64,000 nucleotides of DNA, taken from positions 1 through 64,000 of the forward strand of contig CAUJEL010000131.1 in NCBI GenBank assembly GCA_963169875.1. The letters are read 5' to 3'. Shown here piece by piece: positions 19,419 through 26,921 of this stretch (its first letter is position 1; the number at the start of each line of letters is the position of its first letter). This DNA comes from Candidatus Zhuqueibacterota bacterium. GTDB taxonomy: Bacteria; Zhuqueibacterota; Zhuqueibacteria; Residuimicrobiales; Residuimicrobiaceae. The translations under genes were made by a program, and so were the position numbers. The notes beneath the pieces are model-generated. The model searched no databases. It was not told where the DNA came from and saw nothing but the letters and a program-made list of their open reading frames with translations.

Positions 19419-20960
19419 ATGAAAAAATTAAAACTTTTGCTCATCACGCTGTTGATGGGTGTATTTGCTGTGCAGGCTCAGATTCCCGCCCCCTTTCCTG
19501 AAAAAGAGGAAAAGCCCGATAAAAAAGAGGTGACGCTGATCGGCTATTACTTTATGCGCGGCGAACAGAGCAATACCGCGCCCACCAATGAATTTTTAAA
19601 GGGTCAGGTTGTCGGGCGCATTTTCGGGGGCAACACGGTGCGCACCTCTGATGCGCGCTCCAGCTTTTTTGAACAGCGTTTCATTCCCATGATTGCCTAT
19701 TCGCCGCGGTTGTTCGACGGTTGGGCAACCGTGCGCATGAATCTCGAATTCGACTGGACCCTGGGCGACGCCAATTATGGCGCCGGCGGTAATCTTGGCG
19801 GCGGCTTTGCCGCGGATTTCGTCAACGTCCAGACCCAGAACCTGTTCATCGAATTCCGCCCCAAAAAGACCTTCGTCGTCAACGCCGGCCTCACGCGGCT
19901 TTTCGATAACGTCGCGGTGCCGGCCTACACATCGACCAATCAGCTGCTGCAAACCGGCTATCGCCTCGCTTTCTGGGGCTCGGATGCCAGCGGTATCGCC
20001 ATGCATAACGCCTGGCCCAACCAGCGCATCAAGACCGGCGCCTATCAACTCTATGAAAACAATGTCAATGAGGACGATGATGTCACCCTGTTCGAGGTGG
20101 ATTATGAACGGGACCTGGATATTGTCAACTCCATCGGCGTCTCCTTTTGGCATCTGCGCGACCGCGCCAACGGCGAGGGCGGCGTCTCCATTCTCGGCCA
20201 GGGATTGAACTGCACCCTGAGCGGGTACAACGGCGTCTTCAATTTCGATTTTGGCAATCAGAATTATTCGGCCGATATCAGCTGGCTGGGAACCCATTTT
20301 CACGGCAATCCGCTGTTGAATCAGGGCCGCTTCGGTTACAACGGTTTTGCGGTGATGAATTTCGGTCAGGCCAAAACCGCCACGCAAAAAGTGGATATCA
20401 TGGGTTTTGCCGGCAACCTGCGTATGGCCTACAAATACGGCCGAACCGCCAACGACCACATCGCCATTGATGGCTTGTACACCAGCGGTGACAAACACAA
20501 CATCAGCGACGGCAAATACAGCGGCGTATTGACCGGAAACAACTGGAGCGCGCCAGGCGCCGTCTTTTTCGGGCACGGCCTCTACCTGCTGCTGCCGCAC
20601 GGCAACGTGGTCAACCGCTTCACCGGCGCGGTGCTCGATATTCAGAATATCGGCTACGGCTTTGCCGGCGGATCTGTGACTGCTTCACGCGATCTCATCC
20701 GCAACAAACTCAAGGTCAAGTCCAGCGTCGGCACCGGATTCGCCCCGGTAGCGCCCTATTTGGGTGGCAATATGATCGGAACGGAAGTGAATCTGAATCT
20801 GTGTTATACCCTCCGCGTCTTCATGGATCTGGAGTTGCATGCATCGTATCTGAAATTGGGTGATTTCTTTGATTCGCCGGAGATCAATAATATGGAAACC
20901 CCGGGGCGTCCCCAGGATCCGTGGACCATTTTTGCCACTCTTAAATGGATTATGTTTTGA
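19419..20960 (+). CDS. outer-membrane beta-barrel (porin-like) protein
   Basis: This protein of about 513 residues has a signal peptide (MKKLKLLLITLLMGVFAVQAQ) and then a charged linker (PFPEKEEKPDKKEVTL). A long alternating beta pattern rich in Gly, Asn and aromatics ends ATLKWIMF, with the terminal Phe of barrel proteins. It looks like an alginate-export/porin-like barrel, but I cannot name the family. The ATG at 19419 is preceded by AGTGAGTGGA and starts directly at the signal peptide. It is followed 10 bases later by a lipoprotein hydrolase, suggesting a shared role in acquiring an ester or lipid substrate for the upstream acyl-CoA operon (inference). Confidence 0.72.
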   Translation: MKKLKLLLITLLMGVFAVQAQIPAPFPEKEEKPDKKEVTLIGYYFMRGEQSNTAPTNEFLKGQVVGRIFGGNTVRTSDARSSFFEQRFIPMIAYSPRLFDGWATVRMNLEFDWTLGDANYGAGGNLGGGFAADFVNVQTQNLFIEFRPKKTFVVNAGLTRLFDNVAVPAYTSTNQLLQTGYRLAFWGSDASGIAMHNAWPNQRIKTGAYQLYENNVNEDDDVTLFEVDYERDLDIVNSIGVSFWHLRDRANGEGGVSILGQGLNCTLSGYNGVFNFDFGNQNYSADISWLGTHFHGNPLLNQGRFGYNGFAVMNFGQAKTATQKVDIMGFAGNLRMAYKYGRTANDHIAIDGLYTSGDKHNISDGKYSGVLTGNNWSAPGAVFFGHGLYLLLPHGNVVNRFTGAVLDIQNIGYGFAGGSVTASRDLIRNKLKVKSSVGTGFAPVAPYLGGNMIGTEVNLNLCYTLRVFMDLELHASYLKLGDFFDSPEINNMETPGRPQDPWTIFATLKWIMF

Positions 20961-20970
20961 GGAGCGTGAC

Positions 20971-21918
20971 ATGAAATATTTACTAATCTCTGTGATGGTG
21001 ATTGCCATGATGGTTACAGGCTGCGCGACCTCCAAATATTACCATTTGGAGAAAAAAGAATACGATGACTTTGATTACGGATTTGCCACAAAAAAAATCC
21101 AGGTGCGCAACATCCGCGTCGCGGTCATCGATGAGGGGAGCTCGGAACAGGTGCTGGTGCTCATCCATGGCCTCGGCTCCTATGCCAAGGGCTGGATGAA
21201 AAACATCCCCGAACTCGCGAAAAAGTATCGCGTCATCGCCGTGGATCTGCCGGGCTATGGAAAATCGGACAAGGGATTTTATCCCTATACCCTGCCCTTT
21301 TACGCCCAGGTTTTGACCGAGCTGTTGACAGAATTGAAAATAGAAAAGGCAACATTTGCCGGACACTCCATGGGCGGCCAGATCGCCATGGTGACGTCCC
21401 TGCTCTTTCCGGATCGCGTGGAGCGCCTGGTGCTGGTCTCCCCGGCCGGATTCGAGCGCTTCAGCGATGGCGAGGGCGCCTGGATGTCGAAAGCCATGAC
21501 GCCGGAATTCGTCCACGACACGACCATCCGCAATATCGATGTCAATCTCAAGGCCAATTTCTACAAGTACCCCGAGGATGCCTCATTCATGATCACCGAA
21601 CGCATCCAGATGCGCGGCGCCCGGGATTTCGACAATTATTGCTATGCGGTTTCCAAAAACGTGGCGGCCATGCTGGATTATCCCATGTGGGATAAATTGA
21701 CGCGGATCAAGCACAAAACCCTGATCTTCTTCGGCGAGAATGATGGATTGATCCCCAATCCGTTTCTCCACGGCGGCAAAACCGCGGACGTTGCTGAAAT
21801 CGGGCGCAGCCAGATTCCGGACAATCAGCTCATCATGATTCCAGAATGCGGCCATTTCGCCCAGTTCGAAAAAGCGGATGTGGTGAATCCAGCGATCATC
21901 AAGTTTATGGAAGATTAG
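20971..21918 (+). CDS. alpha/beta-hydrolase lipoprotein
   Basis: The 315-residue protein has a lipoprotein signal (MKYLLISVMVIAMMVTGC, lipobox Cys18). It then has an alpha/beta hydrolase domain with oxyanion loop HGLGSYAKGW, nucleophile elbow GHSMGGQIA, acid FFGENDGLIP and His in PECGHFAQFE. All three catalytic residues are present. Related enzymes cleave esters or C-C bonds, and this one should sit on the outer membrane or in the periplasm. GAGGAG precedes the ATG. It forms a pair with the porin-like gene just upstream. Confidence 0.88.
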   Translation: MKYLLISVMVIAMMVTGCATSKYYHLEKKEYDDFDYGFATKKIQVRNIRVAVIDEGSSEQVLVLIHGLGSYAKGWMKNIPELAKKYRVIAVDLPGYGKSDKGFYPYTLPFYAQVLTELLTELKIEKATFAGHSMGGQIAMVTSLLFPDRVERLVLVSPAGFERFSDGEGAWMSKAMTPEFVHDTTIRNIDVNLKANFYKYPEDASFMITERIQMRGARDFDNYCYAVSKNVAAMLDYPMWDKLTRIKHKTLIFFGENDGLIPNPFLHGGKTADVAEIGRSQIPDNQLIMIPECGHFAQFEKADVVNPAIIKFMED

Positions 21919-22133: not shown

Positions 22134-22469
22134 TCAAAAATTTTCAATCGCCGTTTCTACGGTCTCGTAACTCTTTAACAATTTGCTAAATCCGGTCACA
22201 TCCAAAATCTGTGCAACTTCGGGCTGAACCGCAGCCAATTTTAATTCACCTTGCGCAACCTTTTGACACTCCTTATAGACGCCCAGCAAAACGCGCAGAC
22301 CAGAACTGCTGATATAGTGTACTCCCGCCATGTCCGCGACCATTTTCGTATGACCGTCAGCAAGTAATTGCTTCAGATGTGTGTCCAAATCGTATGATGT
22401 GACCGCATCGATCCGGCCGCCAAGAGCCACAACCTCAACATCACCTATGGTCTTTGTCGTAATAACCAT
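22134..22469 (-). CDS. STAS-domain anti-sigma factor antagonist (SpoIIAA-like)
   Basis: This 111-residue single-domain STAS protein has VVALGGRIDAVTSYDLDTHL in strand 2/helix 1 and YISSSGLRVLLGVYK around the phosphorylatable Ser (Ser55, equivalent to the DSSG Ser of SpoIIAA). Such proteins switch partners with RsbW/SpoIIAB-type GHKL kinases. It lies about 30 bases after the decarboxylase gene, with a good GGAGG. The permease two genes upstream carries a degenerate GHKL-like tail that could be its partner (inference). Confidence 0.85.
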   Translation of the reverse strand: MVITTKTIGDVEVVALGGRIDAVTSYDLDTHLKQLLADGHTKMVADMAGVHYISSSGLRVLLGVYKECQKVAQGELKLAAVQPEVAQILDVTGFSKLLKSYETVETAIENF

Positions 22470-22501
22470 GCATCCTCCTGCAAATGCGCGTTGTTTTCCA
22501 T

Positions 22502-24370
22502 CTACTCATTTTTCTGTGTGATGGCGCTTAGTTTTTCCTTCATGATATTCATGAAACGGCTGAAAAATTCATCGAAGGGCTGATTACTGTTCAAGAAAGG
22601 GGTCATGATGCAGGAACGCAGCACATAGACGCTGCCCACCCGCTCCCACTCGCTTTGGGGTATGCCAAAACGCCGGGTGAAATGCTCCGGGATGTCCCCG
22701 TAATTCTCCTGATCGAGACTTGTTTTGGAAGTTATGAAATCATTGGTATAGATGCGTCCTGTTTTATAGGAAAAAAATTCAAAAAGAGTCTGATTCAGGC
22801 TGTTCATGTGTTCCAGATTCGTATCGCCGATCTCACAAAATGCAAAATCCACGATATTTATATCCGGTTTGGTCAACGCCCGGACGATATAACGATGTTG
22901 CCCGGTATCGATGGGGTGCGAATTTTCCAGGGCATGGTACAACTGCAGCGCCTTTTCGATGCCGCGCGCGACTATCTGGCCATAGCCGCGTTGATGCAAG
23001 GGGATAACCTGCAGAGCCGTCCATACAGCGGCCACGGTGGCGCCCGCCTTGGAACCCTCCATGATGTAACTGCCGAGCAGCGGATGTACTTCCTTTTTTT
23101 CAAAAACGTAATGGGCGAAAAAGGAAATCAAATCCAGGATGCGCTTGTCTTTGACGGCGATGGCCCCGGTGGCATAAGGGATATAACCCATTTTATGGGG
23201 ATCGATGGTAATGGAGTCGGCTTCCGGCATGGCGGCAAAGGCGCGATAGACCTCTTCTGAAGGATACTCAAGCCGGGCGTCCATCAGATTCAGGTTCTGC
23301 AAATTCTGCTGCAGTTCGGTTTGAGAAGAAAAACTAAAGTCCGTGTTGAGATAAAGGGATCGCACAAATCCGCCATACGCGGCATCGATATGAAAATAGA
23401 ATGAAAGACCTTTTTGTTCGAACGCCTTGCGTATTTCCACGATTCGATGGATATCATCAACCGCGCCTTCTTCGGTCGTGCCGATAATGCCCACCACGGC
23501 CAGCACGTGCTCTTTCTGCTGCTGCAGCTCCGCGAGTTTACGGGAGAGCACCCCGGTATCCATGCGGTATTCATCCGTCACGGGAATGAAAATCAGATTC
23601 TCCTGACCGATCCCCAATATATCGACGGCTTTGAGCCAGGAGTAGTGCTTCGATTGGGGAACGAGCACTTTGCCCGGTTTGAATGCGGCCAGGCCTTTTT
23701 GACCGGCCGATGCGCTTCTGATGGCTGCGAAACGGTTGCTGCGGATGGCTTTTTCGACCAGATCCAAAATGCGTTCGCTGGGCAGGTTCAACAACTGCCA
23801 GGTATCCAGCCCCTGCACCCAATCGGGTTCGATTTCCGCAACAGCCAGCGGGAAGGCCTTGAGGTTTCGCGCCAACCACAATCCTTCATAATTGGCGATG
23901 GTGCCTCCGGATGCAATATGTCCCCAGGAACGCTCGGGATCATAACCCAAAAAGACAGCCAGGCGCTTGCCCACCTCCAACTCCATTTCAGTAGTGACAG
24001 GAGAACCCTCGTAGGCGCAATTATTGGGATTATAGAGCAGGGTGAGCATATAGCCCAGATTGGCAGCCATCAGGGTGTCGGTGGTCATGTGGCCCAGATA
24101 GCGCGTTGAAAACCAGGGCATGGATTTATCCTGCAGCCGGCCCGCCAATTCCACCAGCGCCAGTCTGGTATCCAGCAGGGTCTGTTGAAAGCTGGTCTGG
24201 ATTTGATCGTCAGCGGTGATGGCGGGATGATCCTCCGAATGGTATCCCTTGCGCCATTCCATAAAATCGTCGATCAGATAGTGCAACATCTCCTTGAAGA
24301 AAAGCTCGTTTTCTGATTTGGGTCCTAAAAAGAGGGCATCGACATTGAGTTTTTCCATAGTGCTTTCCAT
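22502..24370 (-). CDS. tyrDC: PLP-dependent tyrosine-decarboxylase-type enzyme
   Basis: The 622-residue size and motifs match the Enterococcus-type tyrosine decarboxylase rather than the shorter archaeal MfnA. They are WGHIASGGTIANYEGLW (149-165), KHYSWLKAVDILGIG (241-255), GTTEEGAVDDIHRI (297-310), FHIDAAYGGF (326-335) and the PLP-binding Lys393 in ITIDPHKMGYIPYATG. The enzyme would release CO2 from tyrosine or a related amino acid to give tyramine in the cytoplasm, which consumes protons. Its ATG shares one base with the permease stop (TAATG), so the two are translationally coupled. An ATG at 24358 is an alternative start. The permease is not of the usual tyrosine/tyramine antiporter type. 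Confidence 0.82.
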   Translation of the reverse strand: MESTMEKLNVDALFLGPKSENELFFKEMLHYLIDDFMEWRKGYHSEDHPAITADDQIQTSFQQTLLDTRLALVELAGRLQDKSMPWFSTRYLGHMTTDTLMAANLGYMLTLLYNPNNCAYEGSPVTTEMELEVGKRLAVFLGYDPERSWGHIASGGTIANYEGLWLARNLKAFPLAVAEIEPDWVQGLDTWQLLNLPSERILDLVEKAIRSNRFAAIRSASAGQKGLAAFKPGKVLVPQSKHYSWLKAVDILGIGQENLIFIPVTDEYRMDTGVLSRKLAELQQQKEHVLAVVGIIGTTEEGAVDDIHRIVEIRKAFEQKGLSFYFHIDAAYGGFVRSLYLNTDFSFSSQTELQQNLQNLNLMDARLEYPSEEVYRAFAAMPEADSITIDPHKMGYIPYATGAIAVKDKRILDLISFFAHYVFEKKEVHPLLGSYIMEGSKAGATVAAVWTALQVIPLHQRGYGQIVARGIEKALQLYHALENSHPIDTGQHRYIVRALTKPDINIVDFAFCEIGDTNLEHMNSLNQTLFEFFSYKTGRIYTNDFITSKTSLDQENYGDIPEHFTRRFGIPQSEWERVGSVYVLRSCIMTPFLNSNQPFDEFFSRFMNIMKEKLSAITQKNE

Positions 24371-26133
24371 TAATGGTCAAAATGCAGACAATAGTGATTT
24401 TCGTCCTGATGATGCGAGACGTGCACCTCATCGGTCTGATAATAGACCATCGACAACGCCATGCTTGAAAAAGCGCTGTCGTCCGCAGTCATCCAGTCGA
24501 TCGAATCTGGTTTCGCAACAGAAAGTAATGGCCCCTTGTAGTAGATATTCACATTGATGCTCAATTCATTATAAATCATCACATACCGGACAGGGGTTCC
24601 GGGGATGCCGGCGCAGATGAGCGCCTCATTGAATTCCAGTACGGCATTCTTGACTTTTTCGATCACGCTGGTCAGAGCGCCCCACGTCCGGCCGCTTTCA
24701 TCGATGAAATCGAACAAAATTTGCCGGCTCTGCGGCGCTGCGGTCAACTCGATCTGGCGCTTTTGCGACAGGCCGATGCGCATGATCAGATTCAGGATCA
24801 ACGCGGACAGGATCGCCAGAGCCAGCGAAGATCTGAAGACAGGCAGAGCCCAGGGATGAACATGACTGTACAAGCCTGGCACCATATCCACGCTCAATCC
24901 AAGCGCCAGGGAAACGCCAACGACCATAATTTTTCTCGCATCCAGCATCCGGGAGGTGATGATCTGCAACCCGGAAACGATCATGAAGGTGGCGGCAAAC
25001 AGGAGCGCCGCACCCATCACCGGCCGGGGCATGACGAGAAAAATCATGGATACCTTGGGCAAAAAGGCCAGAGTGATCAGAATGATGCCATACGAAAAAG
25101 CGATGATCCGGCTCGTCACGCCGGTGGCCAACGACAGGCCGATATGTGTGGAAGAGGTGGATTGACCAAACCCACCCATCACACCGGGCAGCACACCGCC
25201 GAATCCGTCGACTAAAATGCCTTTGGAGATCGAGTTCATATCCGGGAGGCGCCAATTGGCATCGTTAACTTTTTGACAGATGACGAGATCGCCAATGCTT
25301 TTCAGGGTGGAACAGATGGTCGCCACCATGAAAGGAATGATGAGTGAAAAATCAAACGCCCAATGAAAATCACGGATATAGGGTACGTCAAAGAATGACA
25401 CCGCGGAGAATTTTTGCAGATCAGAATTCGGAATCACACCCGCCGCCAGCGCCACAACATAACCGACCGTGATGCCAATCAACGCACAATAGAGCTTGAG
25501 TCCGCCCTTGCCAAAGACATTGAGCCCCATCATCAAGGCCAAAGTGACCAGACCAATGGTCACCTCGGTCGGTGTGCCCATGGCATTGTCCGCATTGACC
25601 GCGAAGAGGTTGCGAACCGCAACCGGAATGATGACGACACCGACCATGGTGACGGCGACGCCGGACACCTCAGCCGGGAAGAGGATGCGCAGTTTATGCA
25701 ACACCCTGGAAAAGAGCATCTCGATCAGGCCGGCCAAGGCGGTCATGCCAAAAATAAGCGGCAATCCCCCTGCCGCCGCGGCAGCCCGCGTGGCATCCAT
25801 ATAGCTTGGTCCGCAGACGGCCGGACAAAGGTATCCGGAACCAAAGGCATTTCTTTTCACCGCCTGCAACATGGTTGTAACGGCGGCGGCAATAAAACTC
25901 AAACTGATAAAAGCCCGGCCATTTTCAGGGGATATGCTGTCTCCCAGGCTTTGCACGATAATCACCGGAAAAACAATCGAGATAAAAAAGACGCTCACAT
26001 GCTGCAGACCGAGCAGGATGATGGTGCGCAGGGGGGGCTTTTCATCAACGCCATAGAGAAGATTGGAAGGTTTTTGTGAAAGCTGGGTCGTCCTTCTGAA
26101 ATTTTTCCAGGGTGCATCCGGTCGGCGCGACAT
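24370..26133 (-). CDS. NCS2-family (xanthine/uracil) permease with C-terminal GHKL-like domain
   Basis: The product is about 587 residues. Residues 30-455 are a nucleobase:cation symporter-2 transporter with 12-14 hydrophobic helices, including AVCGPSYMDATRAAAAAGG and the GGFGQSTSSTHIGLSLATGV loop. Residues 470-587 are a soluble tail with VKNAVLEFNEALICAG, resembling the N-box helix of RsbW/HATPase_c_2 proteins, and a final strand pair EVHVSHHQDENHYCLHFDH. The ATP-lid glycines are missing, so it is probably non-catalytic. The start at 26133 has GGAGG six bases upstream. It is the first gene of a permease / decarboxylase / STAS operon. The transported molecule is unknown. Confidence 0.82.
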   Translation of the reverse strand: MSRRPDAPWKNFRRTTQLSQKPSNLLYGVDEKPPLRTIILLGLQHVSVFFISIVFPVIIVQSLGDSISPENGRAFISLSFIAAAVTTMLQAVKRNAFGSGYLCPAVCGPSYMDATRAAAAAGGLPLIFGMTALAGLIEMLFSRVLHKLRILFPAEVSGVAVTMVGVVIIPVAVRNLFAVNADNAMGTPTEVTIGLVTLALMMGLNVFGKGGLKLYCALIGITVGYVVALAAGVIPNSDLQKFSAVSFFDVPYIRDFHWAFDFSLIIPFMVATICSTLKSIGDLVICQKVNDANWRLPDMNSISKGILVDGFGGVLPGVMGGFGQSTSSTHIGLSLATGVTSRIIAFSYGIILITLAFLPKVSMIFLVMPRPVMGAALLFAATFMIVSGLQIITSRMLDARKIMVVGVSLALGLSVDMVPGLYSHVHPWALPVFRSSLALAILSALILNLIMRIGLSQKRQIELTAAPQSRQILFDFIDESGRTWGALTSVIEKVKNAVLEFNEALICAGIPGTPVRYVMIYNELSINVNIYYKGPLLSVAKPDSIDWMTADDSAFSSMALSMVYYQTDEVHVSHHQDENHYCLHFDH

Positions 26134-26588
26134 GCTGCCCTCCAAGATAAGGTGCGACCATGCATCAATCCCCATTCTGTGTCAGGACGCGCTGTTGGCG
26201 CACTCCATTTTACTGTTTCGGTGCGTGCTTGTGCACTCAATGGAGGATTGACACCAGAATCCGGGATCAAGGATTATTTTGTATCCGTGAGATAAAATAT
26301 ACGAATTCAGCAAACATTTCCTAACATTTTTTATGTCCTGGGCTGTGGAATTCAGAGCGGTCAATGGGGGTTCGCGGGACAATGATATGGTTTTGCAGCA
26401 CCTAAGCGGGGACTGCGATTTATGCCGGCGCGACTCGTTCAAGAGACAATCATGTGGTTTTGCAGTGTGCCAGCTATCGCGAGAAGCTAAAGTGCGTGCT
26501 GGTCAGACATAGGATGGAGCCGGGACCACCCCGGAAATCGCCGTTCCGCTTCGCATAACGCTTGCGCAGGCCGGCCAGACTGGCTGGT
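26134..26588. other. intergenic region with short direct repeats
   Basis: This 455-base spacer holds the permease 5' region. Two near-identical 21-base segments start GACAATGATATGG (26378-26398) and GACAATCATGTGG (26445-26465), and both end TTTTGCAG. Closer to the permease, CTCCATT and AATGGAG form a possible leader hairpin (about 26203-26246). No riboswitch class is recognised. Confidence 0.4.
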
Positions 26589-26921
26589 CTACAATTTGGG
26601 ATTGTTCTTGTGGCGCTCTTTATCCCGGTTGATCTTTTTTTCGAAATTTCGCTGCACCGCCGCGGTCAAATCCACACCGGTCTGATTGGCAATGCAGACC
26701 AGAACAAAAAATACGTCCGCCAACTCATCAGCCAGGTTTACAGCCTGATCCGACGCTTTGAAACTCTGATCGCCATAGGTGCGCGACATCACCCGCGCCA
26801 CCTCGCCCACCTCCTCCACCAGCTGCGCCAGATTGGTCAATTCGGAAAAATAGCGCACGCCATAGGTCTTGATCCAGGCATCCACCTGCTCCTGGTAGGA
26901 GCGGATCGTCAAATTATCCAT
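26589..26921 (-). CDS. MazG-like nucleotide pyrophosphohydrolase
   Basis: This 110-residue all-alpha NTP pyrophosphohydrolase has the metal-binding LVEEVGEVARVMSR (ExxEE-type) near residues 32-45 and ADELADVFFVLVCIAN (ExxD) near 65-80, both typical of single-domain MazG-like/dUTPase-like enzymes. It would hydrolyse a nucleoside triphosphate to monophosphate and PPi as a housecleaning function. It is 25 bases downstream of the DUF6483-like gene, so the two are probably co-transcribed. Confidence 0.85.
   Translation of the reverse strand: MDNLTIRSYQEQVDAWIKTYGVRYFSELTNLAQLVEEVGEVARVMSRTYGDQSFKASDQAVNLADELADVFFVLVCIANQTGVDLTAAVQRNFEKKINRDKERHKNNPKL

Follow-up and report, generated by a model that had tools for sequence, protein, structure and literature searches.

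The window, a 64,000-nt stretch of a Candidatus Zhuqueibacterota contig, carries three genes on the minus strand that together make up the locus studied here. These encode an NCS2/SLC23-type permease (24373..26133, or 26133-24370 including the stop; 587 aa without the stop), a tyrosine-decarboxylase-like PLP decarboxylase (22502..24370; 622 aa), and a STAS protein of the anti-anti-sigma type (22134..22469; 111 aa). An ATG further upstream, at 26175 (-), is an alternative permease start and would yield a 601-aa product. The decarboxylase ATG shares one base with the permease stop codon TAA (24372-24370), and the STAS gene follows 32 bp past the decarboxylase with an AGGAGG-type ribosome site. 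The coordinates thus bear out the preliminary description, which placed all three genes in one operon with the permease stop overlapping the decarboxylase start. Freeing sigma factors is the main role known for partner switching. At the window locus, STAS is the sole partner-switch gene, with no kinase or phosphatase gene; RsbW kinases, SpoIIE phosphatases, and further STAS proteins are encoded elsewhere in the same genome.

The transmembrane transporter domain of the permease (residues 1-453; 24775..26133, -) belongs to the NCS2/SLC23 family, based on its match to PF00860 (Xan_ur_permease; residues 38-419, E 1.2e-53, 182.7 bits vs. a gathering score of 27) and on fold searches. The full-length AlphaFold model (pLDDT 88.4) is most similar by Foldseek to UapA/UraA (5i6c, 6e-16), with SLC26 chains ranking after SLC23. 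While the fold and Pfam family are common to the nucleobase carriers UapA, UraA, and PbuX, the window permease differs from them in its extra GHKL tail, in Lys and Ser/Thr at the substrate site, and in scoring below the NCBIfam cut-offs for pbuX (241/414 bits) and ncs2 (185/292 bits). In the alignment to 5i6c and 8omz, it lacks both the acidic TM8 residue and the Gln/Glu of the TM10 base-binding motif: the nucleobase-site Glu is replaced by Lys278 (25300..25302, -; Lys in 52/61 tailed relatives), and the Gln/Glu by Thr329 (25147..25149, -; Ser/Thr in the tailed family). We take these columns to be UapA Glu356/UraA Glu241 and UapA Gln408/UraA Glu290, respectively. Classic NCS2 paralogues recovered by these searches retain E and Q/E, respectively. 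Because these two residues are replaced, the cargo of the window permease is probably not a nucleobase, judging from the alignment; annotation as a purine permease was rejected on the same replacements and the missed cut-offs. An initial genome-wide scan that used the permease alone as query found no homologue.

The C-terminal region of the permease (residues ~456-587; 24373..24768, -) was described preliminarily as an RsbW-type GHKL domain with a damaged ATP lid. No Pfam model matches the window tail itself at E<=1, and the tail profile, used as a HMMER query against the PDB, gave low-scoring matches to designed or helical proteins. Among 63 homologous tails, HATPase_c_2 is the most recurrent Pfam family (6/63, best 1.7e-4). 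Profile-profile comparison (hhalign) between the tails and genuine RsbW domains gave a probability of 95.5% and a score of 53.4; the 60 column-shuffled controls scored at most 20.6, and a STAS profile 9.6. Modeled by AlphaFold (pLDDT 88.3, pTM 0.83), the tail best matches SpoIIAB/RsbW structures (Foldseek 5e-7; VIA-align Z 15.1, rmsd 2.1 over 118 aa), and its top PDB matches, SpoIIAB-SpoIIAA, RsbW-RsbV, and UsfX-RsfB, are kinase domains whose structures were determined together with STAS or sigma partners. As modeled, and by profile comparison, the tail is a SpoIIAB-type GHKL fold, so this part of the description stands. The lid is also altered, but the change is not confined to it. The tails lack the ATP/Mg motifs of RsbW/SpoIIAB serine kinases (N-box Asn, G1 Asp-x-Gly, G2 GxG): the N-box Asn is found in 0/65, the G1 Asp is Tyr in 62/65, and GxG is absent, while the N-box Glu is retained in 63/65. 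The N-box Asn, G1 Asp, and GxG are all intact in 15/15 genuine RsbWs. Since the loss extends throughout the tail family, the sequences indicate that the tail is a catalytically dead pseudokinase module, and local decay of the lid was rejected.

The STAS protein has the features of a SpoIIAA/RsbV-type protein with a phosphorylatable serine. Its STAS domain (E 8e-22) scores 84.8 bits against ant_ant_sig (cut-off 53.45), and it carries the SpoIIAA/RsbV-type phosphosite serine in a YISSSGL loop (Ser54-56). The phosphosite Ser is present in 24/25 STAS proteins linked to tailed permeases, and the window STAS is only marginally nearer to these proteins than to its paralogues in the same genome.

A search with alignment A3 yielded 78 loci. 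Permeases with an RsbW-like tail number about 60 and occur in both bacteria and archaea, across many phyla. Partner-switch genes (STAS, SpoIIE phosphatase, or RsbW kinase) account for 41 of the 217 genes one or two positions from the tailed permease but for 6 of the 210 that lie four or more positions away (p 4e-8), and 39 of the 41 near genes are co-directional with the permease. In total, 32/61 tailed loci have partner-switch genes, as opposed to 0/11 tail-less loci; about half of the tailed permeases have none in the fetched DNA, in which some contigs are short. Among 200 neighbors of tailed permeases there are 19 SpoIIE, 17 STAS, and 11 HATPase_c_2 proteins, none of which is listed among 30 neighbors of the tail-less sisters. 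This tailed vs. tail-less contrast is not independent evidence, as the tree shows no more than about three changes in tail presence; the independent-pairs comparison of tail and partner-switch genes comprises only 2 pairs. Several loci encode full circuits: four (L022, L025, L034, and L037) have the permease, a dCache-HAMP-SpoIIE-RsbW fusion, and STAS, and one (L061) has the permease, STAS, SpoIIE, and RsbW.

The trio itself also recurs. A genome of the same family encodes, in order, SpoIIE, NHLP, NHLP-STAS, decarboxylase, and permease (L145), with a translational overlap of permease and decarboxylase, as in the window, and on a Cloacimonadota contig (L028) a STAS-decarboxylase fusion adjoins a tailed permease. 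A decayed remnant of the trio is found at L022/L147. The trio proposed at the outset is therefore kept in a second genome of the family and echoed in Cloacimonadota, and neither of the two conditions named beforehand as refuting the proposal, a tail lacking the GHKL fold or a trio lacking conservation, holds. Random juxtaposition was rejected because the neighbor signal, 19% for genes one or two places away, drops to 3% from the fourth gene on, and because the trio recurs. Altogether, the proposed tie to partner switching is well supported, given that tailed permeases of many phyla adjoin SpoIIE/RsbW/STAS genes.

Our best explanation, to which we give even odds as a whole (probability about 0.5), is that the permease is regulated by STAS docking on its tail under phosphorylation control. 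The NCS2-fold secondary transporter carries a catalytically dead RsbW/SpoIIAB-type domain as its cytosolic C-terminus, on which the unphosphorylated STAS protein of the same operon would most likely dock, altering transporter activity by gating or locking. The phosphorylation state of STAS would be set by the RsbW-type kinases and SpoIIE phosphatases that the window genome encodes away from this locus; at other loci the genes of these enzymes directly adjoin the permease gene, often as fusions to a Cache sensor. The decarboxylase, translated together with the permease, would provide or use up the solute that is carried, plausibly a carboxylate or an amino acid swapped for its amine. That tailed transporters adjoin genes of the same switch in bacteria and archaea suggests control by protein docking. 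Of the separate steps, direct STAS-tail binding is somewhat more likely than not, and control of transport, rather than sensing, has somewhat less than even odds.

The opposite direction is that of a transceptor, in which the tail reports transport state by sequestering or releasing STAS, which in turn works on a genuine RsbW kinase and so changes gene expression or signaling. Tailed permeases adjoin Cache-HAMP-SpoIIE sensors and further sensor kinases that bear 5TM-LytS or PAS domains, and the tail-less sisters pair with Cache proteins too (10/30 neighbors), which ties the permease family to sensing even without the tail. However, the top neighbor families contain no recurrent sigma factor or other output gene, and a dead kinase with a retained binding face fits the receiving end as well as the sending end; we regard this direction as unlikely. 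It is less likely still that STAS serves as a scaffold tethering the decarboxylase to the permease tail, channeling substrate and product. The Cloacimonadota fusion and the overlapping genes of the window and its same-family counterpart are what such a scaffold would have in its favor, but most tailed loci have STAS or no decarboxylase, and the window STAS is a separate protein without a known decarboxylase-binding part. Finally, RsbW-type domains dimerise, and the tail may be a mere dimerisation or folding module, with STAS a general regulator sharing the operon by chance. The tailed loci without partner-switch genes in the DNA seen agree with this, but the strong clustering of such genes, fading with distance, and their absence beside tail-less sisters make it the most improbable of these explanations.

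Docking of STAS on the permease tail, as we favor, would resemble several known systems. The wider tailed-permease family has the same three parts (STAS, RsbW-fold, SpoIIE) as Bacillus RsbV/RsbW/RsbU and SpoIIAA/SpoIIAB/SpoIIE, but here the RsbW-fold is fused to a transporter, lacks ATP motifs, and has no sigma factor at the locus. SLC26/SulP carriers are of the same fold superfamily, and their cytosolic C-terminal domain likewise comes from the partner-switch pair; SulP has the STAS half in cis, whereas the tailed NCS2 family has the RsbW half in cis and STAS in trans. The STAS protein MlaB binds the ABC ATPase MlaF (PMC7367683). MlaB is similarly a STAS-only protein that regulates a transporter post-translationally, but its partner is an active ATPase of another transporter class rather than an RsbW-like pseudokinase. 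We found no precedent in open-licence papers for NCS2/SLC23 combined with RsbW, STAS, or partner switching. There is a slightly less than even chance that the tailed permeases of bacteria and archaea form a widespread, as yet undescribed type of secondary transporter under the direct control of partner switching, in which a fused RsbW-like pseudokinase receives a phosphorylatable STAS, with Cache-SpoIIE-RsbW sensors upstream. If so, partner switching would regulate membrane transport without transcription, as a mirror image of the STAS-bearing SLC26 carriers, and a degenerate anti-sigma domain would be the regulatory tail of a transporter family in many phyla, with transport set post-translationally. 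This would give a function to many "solute carrier family 23" proteins currently annotated as purine permeases, make the tail and STAS a two-protein system for tests in purified form, and offer a comparison for human SLC26 carriers, whose STAS domain remains poorly understood.

The decarboxylase bears on the cargo. It matches tyr_de_CO2_C (E 2.4e-43) and the solved TyrDC 7cwx (phmmer 7e-167 over residues 7-617) and conserves DPHKMGYIPY, including the PLP-binding DPHK lysine, while its 659 bits fall short of the 905-bit cut-off of the tyrosine decarboxylase equivalog TIGR03811. The lactic-acid-bacterial tyrosine decarboxylase locus is tyrS-tdcA-tyrP (PMC3315439); the enzymes share ~43% identity and both are encoded together with a carrier, but the window has neither tyrS nor TyrP, its carrier is NCS2-type, and its partner is STAS. 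The early suggestion that an NCS2 protein may replace the usual antiporter, here that of tyrosine/tyramine, is no more than compatible with the loss of the nucleobase residues and with the window genome, in which the best TyrP match reaches 42.6/630 bits; it sits less well with the sub-cut-off enzyme score and with the decarboxylase being missing beside most tailed permeases. Tyrosine/tyramine exchange by the window permease is only weakly supported, and an amino acid/amine pair in general is a doubtful substrate. Many neighbors of tailed permeases are enzymes with no relation to decarboxylation (acyl-CoA hydrolase/transferase, PALP-family, amidohydrolase), so cargo may vary across the family. 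In an 82-genome sample of the phylum, close homologues of the decarboxylase are confined to two genomes, that of the window and one other (G004), and adjoin a tailed permease in both. NHLP peptides, which we sought at all loci, are present at L145 and L017 only.

The window, part of a metagenome-assembled genome, contains a compact three-gene operon on the minus strand, with genes taken simply as the longest ORFs. The first gene encodes an NCS2-type permease (26133-24370); the second, overlapping it by one base, encodes a tyrosine-decarboxylase-type PLP decarboxylase (24370-22502); and the third, 32 bp further on, encodes a STAS protein (22469-22134). A MazG-type gene (26589-26921) lies upstream of the permease across a gap of ~455 bp; downstream, an alpha/beta hydrolase gene (20860-21918, plus strand) is oriented toward the operon.

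The preliminary description had claimed a GHKL-like tail on this permease, and profile and structural comparisons bear this out. Residues 456-587 have no direct Pfam matches; across 63 homologous tails, HATPase_c_2 is the commonest family (6/63; the runner-up has 2). Profile-profile comparison matched the tails to true RsbW domains with 95.5% probability and a score of 53.4, versus 20.6 for the shuffled maximum and 9.6 for a STAS control. The AlphaFold model (61 aligned sequences; pLDDT 88.3, pTM 0.83) has the topology strand-helix-helix-strand-strand-helix-strand-strand, with confidence lowest at the expected ATP-lid position, and its closest PDB structures are those of SpoIIAB, RsbW, and UsfX, many of them determined together with a STAS or sigma partner. 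The tail is a conserved pseudokinase domain: the N-box Asn, G1 Asp, and GxG are all kept in 15 of 15 true RsbW domains, while the N-box Asn occurs in 0/65 tails, Tyr replaces the G1 Asp in 62/65, and GxG is absent. The N-box Glu is retained in 63/65 tails.

Partner-switch genes cluster beside the tailed permeases. Among 200 proteins within two genes, Pfam identified 19 SpoIIE, 17 STAS, and 11 HATPase_c_2 proteins, along with numerous Cache sensors; the families listed for 30 neighbors of ten tail-less sister permeases include none of the first three and 10 occurrences of Cache proteins. Partner-switch genes make up 41/217 genes at offsets 1-2 (39 of the 41 co-directional) versus 6/210 at offsets of at least 4 (p = 4e-8). 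By locus, they accompany 32/61 tailed and 0/11 tail-less permeases, a contrast that is not phylogenetically independent because the tail-less rows fall almost all in one clade; the distance effect is unaffected by it. The tree requires at least 18 changes of the partner-switch label. Among the clearest circuits are the order permease, dCache-HAMP-SpoIIE-RsbW fusion, STAS (L022, L025, L034, L036, L037) and the order permease, STAS, SpoIIE, RsbW (the methanogen locus L061). In the window genome, RsbW kinases and SpoIIE phosphatases are encoded elsewhere; four SpoIIE domains stand together with a single RsbW-type kinase and a single STAS gene in one cluster (G000:C157:17817-24388), a candidate source of kinase and phosphatase for the operon. 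The ten tail-less sisters (L076, L079, L081, L082, L085-L089, L091) have ten dCache_2/sCache_2 proteins among their neighbors, the Cache gene mostly encoding ~310 aa and lying immediately upstream, possibly forming a Cache-carrier pair of its own.

Searching other genomes for the trio that the preliminary description had singled out located it in the same-family genome G004, where it is conserved in a different order: SpoIIE, NHLP-leader protein, NHLP-STAS fusion, decarboxylase (64% identical to that of the window), and tailed permease. G004 and the window genome are the only two in the phylum sample with close decarboxylase homologs. On the Cloacimonadota contig L028, a STAS-PLP decarboxylase fusion precedes a tailed permease and, after it, the first part of a sensor gene resembling the Cache-SpoIIE gene of L022. 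In L022, from a second Cloacimonadota genome, a remnant of the last 84 residues of an L028-type decarboxylase (L022:5423-5674, = L147:8451-8702; 64% identical, one stop) stands right after the STAS gene of the partner-switch cluster; the decarboxylase part appears to have been lost in this lineage. All loci were checked, and the decarboxylase was not found at the remaining ones; it is therefore only an occasional third member, and STAS, SpoIIE, and RsbW are the recurrent partners. The STAS domain of L028 forms the decarboxylase N-terminus (L028:1195-3189), an architecture seen at no other fetched locus. The two G004 proteins with NHLP (nitrile-hydratase-like RiPP) leaders, one fused to STAS, precede the decarboxylase at L145:2488-3265 (minus strand); an NHLP-like gene is also present in the Thiodictyon locus L017.

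Regarding cargo, when the family profile is aligned to UapA and UraA, Lys278 and Thr329 fall on the two base-binding residues. Lys occupies the first position in 52/61 tailed proteins, and ordinary NCS2 paralogs keep Glu and Gln/Glu at the two positions. A carboxylate would suit such a positively charged site. Acetyl-CoA hydrolase/transferase genes adjoin tailed permeases at L040:7330-10024 and L026:7224-8522, and a 3-oxoacid CoA-transferase and a 3-hydroxybutyrate dehydrogenase precede the Azospirillum one (L016). These CoA-transferase-type neighbors hint at carboxylate cargo and, together with the window decarboxylase, point to organic or amino acids. A tyrosine/tyramine role for the window operon is possible and weakly supported: the decarboxylase scores 659 bits versus a tyrosine-decarboxylase cut-off of 905. 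A genome-wide search of the window genome found no convincing TyrP antiporter.

Altogether, the system is read as partner switching with the transporter as its likely target. The STAS serine, presumably an RsbV-type phosphosite, is conserved; unphosphorylated STAS would dock on the permease tail and alter transport, phosphorylation by a kinase would release it, and SpoIIE would restore docking. Rival explanations assign the tail other roles: as part of a transceptor, it would sequester STAS to report transport; as part of a scaffold, it would hold a decarboxylase tethered by STAS; or it may be purely structural. Published work includes STAS-only proteins that act via anti-sigma factors and MlaB, a STAS-only protein that acts on an ABC ATPase (PMC7367683). 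In the open-licence literature we found no secondary transporter described as carrying an RsbW-like domain, an absence that is not proof.

The genome scan yielded 78 related loci, ~60 with the tail and many on incomplete metagenome contigs, from Cloacimonadota, Armatimonadota, Bacteroidales, Ignavibacteriales, Deltaproteobacteria, Bacillota, Chloroflexi, Rhodospirillales, Methanothrix, and Methanoculleus, among others; plasmid records added Azospirillum and Thiodictyon. Full-length relatives are 33-51% identical to the window permease. The Thiodictyon plasmid (L017:4788-12031) carries two intact tailed permeases and a fragment resembling the tail of a third, immediately before a STAS gene that is followed by SpoIIE and an RsbW-like gene.
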